Shown: positions 2-44,380 of the stretch, one piece after another
Numbering within the stretch: the stretch's first letter is position 1
Layout: each line of letters starts with the position of its first letter
DNA from: Paracoccaceae bacterium
GTDB taxonomy: Bacteria > Pseudomonadota > Alphaproteobacteria > Rhodobacterales > Rhodobacteraceae
Length of the DNA: 64,000 nucleotides
Assembly: GCA_016778765.1 (NCBI GenBank)
Contig: JADHOV010000001.1
Span: 1 to 64,000 of the forward strand
Direction of reading: 5' to 3'
Program-made: the position numbers and the translations under genes
The notes under the pieces: generated by a model
What the model was told of the DNA's origin: nothing
Databases searched by the model: none
What the model saw: the letters and a program-made list of their open reading frames with translations, nothing else

Positions 2-78
<77 letters not shown>

Positions 79-43680: not shown

Positions 43681-44115
43681 TTAATCCCCGTCAAATTCGG
43701 CTTTTGAGGGCCATCCACGATTGCTTTTCACCGCGCCTCGAATTTTTTTAGCCGCCAAACGCCGACGTTGGCTGCCCAAAGTGGGTTTGGTGGCCACGCG
43801 CGGCTTGGGGCGCTGCAAAGCTTGCTGCAGCAAAGTCACCAACCGGTTGCGCACAATTTCTCTATTCCGGGCCTGATGGCGTGTTTCATCACATTGCAAG
43901 ATAAGCGCACCATCTTTGGTCCAGCGCCGCCCAGCCAATCGCTGCAAGCGCGCTTTAACCGGATCGCTCAGGGCTGGAGAACGCGCCGCTTCAAAGCGCA
44001 ATTCAACCGCCGAGCTCACCTTATTCACGTTTTGACCACCCGGGCCAGAGGCGCGCATGAACTGCTCGCTTAGCTCCCATTCCTCGATGATAATTTTATC
44101 CGATACGCGCAGCAT
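43681..44115 (-). CDS. arfB: Alternative ribosome-rescue factor ArfB
   Basis: A 144-residue release-factor-like peptidyl-tRNA hydrolase that frees stalled ribosomes. The catalytic GGQ lies in FMRASGPGGQNVNKVSSAVEL, with a lysine/arginine-rich C-terminal tail that sits in the mRNA channel. The frame continues 16 codons upstream, but MLRVSDKIIIEEWELSEQF at 44115 matches the family start. A separate terminator at 44162-44191 isolates it from upstream transcription. Confidence 0.93.
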   Translation of the reverse strand: MLRVSDKIIIEEWELSEQFMRASGPGGQNVNKVSSAVELRFEAARSPALSDPVKARLQRLAGRRWTKDGALILQCDETRHQARNREIVRNRLVTLLQQALQRPKPRVATKPTLGSQRRRLAAKKIRGAVKSNRGWPSKAEFDGD

Positions 44116-44161
44116 GATTTGCCTTTTGAAGTGAAGTGAACCGCAATCCCTTTTTAAGAAC

Positions 44162-44191
44162 AAAAAGGGCCGCTTGAACCAAGCGACCCTT
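44162..44191 (-). terminator. Intrinsic terminator of the small transcript
   Basis: On the minus strand AAGGG-T-CGCTTG, loop GTT, CAAGCG-G-CCCTT, then TTTTTG. The stem has 11 pairs around one mismatch and is followed by a T run. It ends roughly 46 bases upstream of the arfB ATG. Confidence 0.85.
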
Positions 44192-44259
44192 CGAGACTTA
44201 CGGAGGTGGGCCGGTTAGGCAGCCACCAATTCAGTTGATCCTGCGACCAAGGGTTGCCT

Positions 44260-44316
44260 TCAGACGCGGCTCTCCTGAACTGTTCCGACACCTCTCTCCA
44301 ATACCTCTCTAGACAC
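44260..44316 (-). CDS. Candidate 18-codon peptide
   Basis: A GTG at 44316 sits six bases behind the GGAGGT core of the extended Shine-Dalgarno and opens VSREVLERGVGTVQESRV, stopping at TGA. In the +1 frame, a longer tryptophan-rich stretch (EGNPWSQDQLNWWLPNRP) runs on, starting about ten codons earlier with LERYWREVSEQFRRAA, and would be joined if ribosomes or a sequence change shifted frame. Which frame is used cannot be decided by eye. Confidence 0.35.
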   Translation of the reverse strand: MSREVLERGVGTVQESRV

Positions 44317-44374
44317 TGGATCACCTCCTTTCACATTGTTGAACTCATCTCTACCGTGGCAGAGTTTACAGCTT

Positions 44375-44380
44375 TGTCAA
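44375..44380 (-). promoter_or_regulatory. -35 element of the small transcript
   Basis: The minus strand reads a perfect TTGACA here. At a 17-base spacing the -10 position is only ACGGTA, so the -10 is weak or displaced. Placement upstream of the extended Shine-Dalgarno supports a dedicated promoter. Confidence 0.4.

Follow-up and report, generated by a model that had tools for sequence, protein, structure and literature searches.

The closest catalogued RNA to the element described here is CC2171 (RF01867), an uncharacterised Caulobacter sRNA that Rfam types as an sRNA gene and that is mentioned in an R-scape revision (PMC11701678) and in a Mesorhizobium prediction (PMC5596092). Additionally, Caulobacter profiling found two earlier ncRNAs to be translated, their names not being given in the accessible text of that article (PMC4117421). 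In Rhodobacterales, ribosome-mediated attenuators, for example uORFC-8-2 before cysS, place an intrinsic terminator after a short ORF (PMC8632094). Short ORFs are also carried by the small RNAs Pos19 of Rhodobacter sphaeroides, which is 219 nt long and RpoE-dependent (PMC5036791), and rnTrpL/peTrpL of Sinorhizobium, where rnTrpL is a leaderless trp attenuator (PMC7298713). Extended Shine-Dalgarno (SD) sites have been reported in Staphylococcus aureus, where pairing extends past the standard core in the direction of the start codon (PMC13009471).

Here, we analysed an unannotated element on the minus strand of a 64,000-nucleotide stretch of DNA from a Paracoccaceae bacterium, hereafter called the window. 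The element has the short ORF and the terminator of the uORFC-8-2 type, but it lacks a constant regulated gene downstream, a run of codons for a single amino acid and a supported antiterminator. Unlike Pos19 and rnTrpL as they are described in the accessible parts of those sources, it combines a 14-nt SD with its own anti-SD; and whereas the extended sites of S. aureus are general initiation sites, it would be one conserved self-closing small RNA. Our analyses suggested, with a probability of roughly 0.6, that the element is a small gene standing on its own, a Rhodobacteraceae branch of the CC2171 type that acts as a small mRNA with a self-closing translation gate.

Relationship to CC2171 and to loci across Alphaproteobacteria

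The sequence-only reading of the window knew no named family with this layout, which proved incorrect. RF01867 is a significant relative that matches positions 1-159 of the element at 38.5 bits (E 1.4e-6 genome-wide) and is its sole match in the genome, in a search that had Caulobacter vibrioides among its positive controls. This score falls below the curated cut-off of 75 bits, with much of it contributed by the 5' core, and because it lies under the formal Rfam threshold we regard the element as a divergent relative and variant, not as a member of RF01867. Both have the 5' core CAACAA..GAAAGGAGGUGAUCCAGUGUCU, a similar length and a terminator. In RF01867 a long-range helix joins codons 3-5 with the stretch preceding the terminator; its putative counterpart in the window element lies in the same place but has only about three pairs, one of which (25-137) shows strong covariation; the peptide differs, and an anti-SD clamp and a start-codon hairpin are extra. 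From these comparisons, the element appears to be a translated, self-sequestering variant distantly related to this kind of sRNA.

At its cut-off, RF01867 recognises several loci of the class that carry the long SD (hereafter super-SD); over 240 genomes, 7 pass the cut-off and 56 match at E 0.01. Of 385 alphaproteobacterial genomes, 60 from many families contain the string AAAGGAGGTGRTCCRNTG, each of them once, and its reversed control gave zero matches. The ORFs of these class-wide super-SD loci have 14-57 codons (median 25) and are mostly accompanied by a strong terminator, start codons in 62 loci being ATG (36), GTG (23), TTG (3) and CTG (0), and the peptides are unrelated between families. 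One genome (G048) carries two such loci, L272 and L288, with the peptides MSHGSAKGSVQFVGETRR and MSHCHALNAASGTTVIASAGWLRA. At three loci (L195, L217 and L220) the next frame downstream resembles, by eye, the YaiI/YqxD (DUF188) family. In L201, L219 and L220, the T-W-I/V codons of the ORF (CUGGAU/CUGGGUC, then GCCUC) are complementary to the super-SD, so the conservation of these peptides may partly be RNA pairing.

Layout, distribution and coding selection

The free-standing transcription unit spans 44162-44380 of the window on the minus strand (Table 1). All the parts that had been named from the letters alone, namely TTGACA, the 14-nt SD, the GTG, the 18-codon frame, purine motifs, CACCTCC and the terminator, were located there, several SD-like purine runs lying within the ORF itself. 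The further proposal of a self-contained unit was supported as well, at a length of some 170-180 nt. The promoter letters TTGAC and CA...T are retained in most relatives; CACGGT would be the -10 element and transcription would start near 44340-44346, and the unit is probably expressed as a transcript. The terminator is present in 135 of 138 relatives, with a mean stem of -23 kcal/mol.

Table 1. Features of the element and its downstream neighbour in the window; positions within the element (p) start at the first A of AAAGGAGG, and window coordinate = 44332 - p.
Feature	Window coordinates	Strand	Basis
Putative promoter: TTGACA (44380-44375), 16 nt, CACGGT (44358-44353)	44353..44380	-	sequence
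Super-SD AAAGGAGGTGATCC, complement of 14-nt 16S rRNA tail	44318..44331	-	near-invariant, duplex energy
18-codon ORF MSREVLERGVGTVQESRV, GTG start at 44316, TGA stop 44262-44260	44260..44316	-	length and stop conservation
Hairpin H1, positions 12-20 with 27-35, contains start codon	44297..44320	-	standard pairs
H1 loop bases, predicted pseudoknot with 44193-44195	44307..44309	-	covariation 25-137
Anti-SD CACCTCC, partner of SD 44322-44328	44202..44208	-	standard pairs, pairing probability
UCUC, 3' partner of H1 loop	44193..44196	-	covariation, standard pairs
Inner arm	44211..44288	-	standard pairs
Inner arm helix UCGG:CCGG	44285-44288 with 44211-44214	-	96% standard pairs
Inner arm helix CAGUUCAG:CUGAAUUG	44275-44282 with 44227-44234	-	77% standard pairs
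Inner arm, short hairpin at stop codon		-	90% standard pairs
Intrinsic terminator GAAGGGTCGCTTGGTTCAAGCGGCCCTTTTT	44162..44192	-	stem -20.0 kcal/mol
arfB, downstream neighbour, outside the unit	43681..44115	-	neighbour comparison

A long open frame without a plausible start overlaps the unit on the minus strand (44154-44333). Its translation (VIQCLERYWREVSEQF...) is protein-like in the window, yet the frame does not stay open in relatives such as L005, and we therefore rejected it as a chance frame. The sole Rfam match at cut-off in the window is a tRNA gene (5-78, minus strand).

The covariance-model search of Rhodobacteraceae suggested by the sequence-only reading, run with a model built from 14 orthologues, recovered the element in 138 of 149 genomes (one per genus), almost always as one copy per genome. 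Conserved as a unit in so many genera, it lies far beyond chance. In Paracoccus, 123 of 125 genomes hold exactly one exact-pattern copy. Of 61 relatives searched by BLASTN, 29 gave a match, in some of the weakest cases through the SD string only, and a pattern scan for the element found it in at least 119 DNA stretches, with one match per locus listed; almost all of the matches listed are labelled as Rhodobacteraceae genera or alphaproteobacterial bins. A Rhodobacteraceae-type copy also lies in a metagenome-assembled record labelled Pararhizobium (L093, 3550-3732), beside genes resembling Na+-translocating NADH:quinone reductase (nqr), where transfer or a mis-binned contig may explain it.

Comparison with 16S genes of the same genus shows AAAGGAGGTGATCC to be the reverse complement of their 3' end. 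Across the 2.74 Mb assembly there is a single exact copy of the 14-mer, and none was found at a 16S gene in this draft; since genomes of the same genus carry it as antisense of the 16S 3' end, what it complements is the genuine 16S tail. Among orthologues the super-SD is invariant save for one A/G/C position and rare changes. Its computed duplex with the 16S tail reaches -23.9 kcal/mol, compared with -12.6 kcal/mol for the helix of SD core and anti-SD.

The short frame of the sequence-only reading found support in the orthologues. A stop stands at codon 19 in 132 of 138 distinct orthologues, a clean count where the alignment-based one is blurred by gaps; these stops are TAG (54), TGA (50) and TAA (28), and TGG was seen 0 times against about 21 expected from base frequencies. 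The fixed length, the three stop types and the missing TGG show coding selection on the 18-codon ORF, which is probably translated in cells; stop and length conservation also supply the conserved ORF expected of a dual-function (coding) sRNA. Serine codon 2 varies silently among orthologues, and the AGA, TTG GAG and ACA codons are frozen, so a constraint at the RNA level acts as well. With most ORF codons frozen at the nucleotide level, RNA and peptide constraints are hard to separate. These results also bear on a functional 18-residue peptide whose synthesis the RNA fold merely limits, which we consider rather unlikely. The consensus MSRxxLERGVGTV, kept over many genera, and the silent variation of the serine codon speak for such a peptide; however, families sharing the super-SD have wholly different peptides, a divergent copy (L179) keeps 18 codons with another sequence, and most of the codons are invariant as RNA.

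The SD:anti-SD clamp and the predicted fold

Pairing of the SD with the element's own anti-SD, which the sequence-only reading had supposed may sequester the ribosome site, was borne out by pair conservation. Standard-pair counts, which are inflated by the shared ancestry of the orthologues, reached 98.1% for SD 4-10 with 124-130 (51-62% when slid), 95.5% for H1 (at most 47%), 93.6% for loop 23-25 with 137-139 (at most 67.5%), 96.4% for UCGG:CCGG (at most 49%) and 94.1% for the terminator as positive control (at most 70%). In minimum-energy folds, from which the pseudoknot is necessarily absent, the SD:anti-SD pairing probability averaged 0.97, was above 0.5 in 90 of 90 folded orthologues containing the motif and reached 0.98 for the copy in the window. 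An internal decoy in which the anti-SD would pair with codons 8-10 (85% standard pairs) was rejected, its predicted probability being about 0.01 against 0.97 for SD:anti-SD.

The expected covariation of GGAGGTG with CACCTCC was seen in one direction: 77 of 91 non-consensus anti-SD cells of the alignment still pair with the SD. As the SD does not vary among the aligned sequences, covariation in the strict two-sided sense cannot appear. The strongest covariation was at column pair 25-137 (G-C to A-U), above every pair in 40 tree-simulated null alignments and falling where the Rfam helix of RF01867 lies, and the second strongest at terminator pair 150-158 (E about 0.05). Against the 40 phylogenetic nulls, no pair other than 25-137 and the terminator, the inner arm included, was individually significant.

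Over 52 sequences, opening the SD costs 10.5 kcal/mol, compared with 6.4 for shuffles (mean z +2.1), mononucleotide shuffles serving as a rough control only. The class-wide set of 60 sequences, a few Rhodobacteraceae copies included, gave a mean z of -0.5; in other families the SD is mostly more accessible than in shuffles, with exceptions such as L216 and L201. We thus rejected an anti-SD clamp as a general feature of all families, and with the SD mostly open elsewhere, the clamp cannot readily be taken for the ancestral function. The pairing of the clamp is conserved in the aligned sequences and typical of Rhodobacteraceae, and folding models suggest that clamp, hairpin and pseudoknot may form in cells.

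Two other roles are touched by these data. First, the element could work in trans as an sRNA, its CAYCUCC pairing with the SDs of target mRNAs and its ORF being secondary. It is single-copy, terminator-ended and a relative of an Rfam sRNA, and its anti-SD is conserved at the nucleotide level; yet predicted folds bury the anti-SD in the element's own SD helix, the ORF is under coding selection, and relatives outside Rhodobacteraceae are mostly without the motif, which leaves this role doubtful. Second, the 14-nt match could act as a decoy that titrates free 30S subunits. The match covers the whole single-stranded 16S tail and is kept class-wide, and the SD is open in most other families, but one gene copy would face thousands of ribosomes unless the RNA were extremely abundant, the site is clamped in Rhodobacteraceae and stop codons are maintained; we hold a decoy to be very improbable.

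Neighbouring genes and a possible translation gate

The placement between mepA and arfB is true of this window, but mepA is not the usual neighbour: it lies directly upstream in 7 of 132 relatives, this window included, and yhhQ, which we take to be of the queuosine precursor transporter family, in 121. Downstream, arfB lies within 400 nt on the same strand in 82 of 122 relatives and within 3 kb in 14, and in 26 it is absent from the examined stretch with the element intact. The detached arfB genes, where checked, have no such leader upstream. Because arfB is absent nearby in these 26 relatives and the detached copies checked have no such leader, the unit is autonomous. The divergent copy L179 lies upstream of arfB and carries GGAUCACCUCUCC, a near copy of the 16S tail.

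These neighbourhoods bear on a leader-peptide attenuator, in which ribosomes on the 18-codon ORF would set terminator formation and hence the level of the rescue factor ArfB. The frequent downstream arfB, found also beside some divergent copies, and the resemblance of ORF plus terminator to an attenuator fit this idea, and the 5' arm of the terminator is a possible pairing partner for GGCAGCCC, which follows the stop. However, this antiterminator complementarity, visible in the sequence, is without significant covariation, no antiterminator helix being among the significant covarying pairs; among the 122 relatives the supposedly regulated gene is not always directly downstream; and other alphaproteobacterial relatives adjoin unrelated genes. 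Given these points and the 26 relatives without a nearby arfB, we rejected an arfB leader as improbable.

The preferred reading, a small mRNA with a self-closing gate, can be set out as follows. The transcript of about 175 nt would be anchored by a 30S subunit through the whole 14-nt 16S tail, and translation would start at the GTG and cover the 18 codons. The anti-SD emerges about 120 nt later than the SD, which would give ribosomes a head start during transcription. In the finished RNA, the anti-SD would cover the SD core and the hairpin the start codon, and the loop-to-tail pseudoknot would pin both. A free 30S subunit is predicted to bind the SD more strongly than the clamp does, so the gate, presumably closed by default, would open when initiating ribosomes are plentiful or early. 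We infer both the kinetic head start and the gating by ribosome supply. The output might be either the peptide or the freed CAYCUCC acting on other mRNAs. More speculatively, and with small likelihood, the elements could form a class-wide gauge of free 30S, with a site that complements the 16S tail in full, in which ribosome supply sets open small mRNA against closed RNA; in Rhodobacteraceae an internal copy of part of the 16S tail would compete with the ribosome for this site, and the freed anti-SD would act on other mRNAs.

About 93% of the genera sampled in this major bacterial family have the element, almost always as one copy, and we found no described function for it. It may offer a compact natural system where ribosome and anti-SD compete for one site. 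Furthermore, it alters the reading of the CC2171 family, to be seen as a super-SD with a short ORF, spread across Alphaproteobacteria and mostly under the Rfam cut-off.
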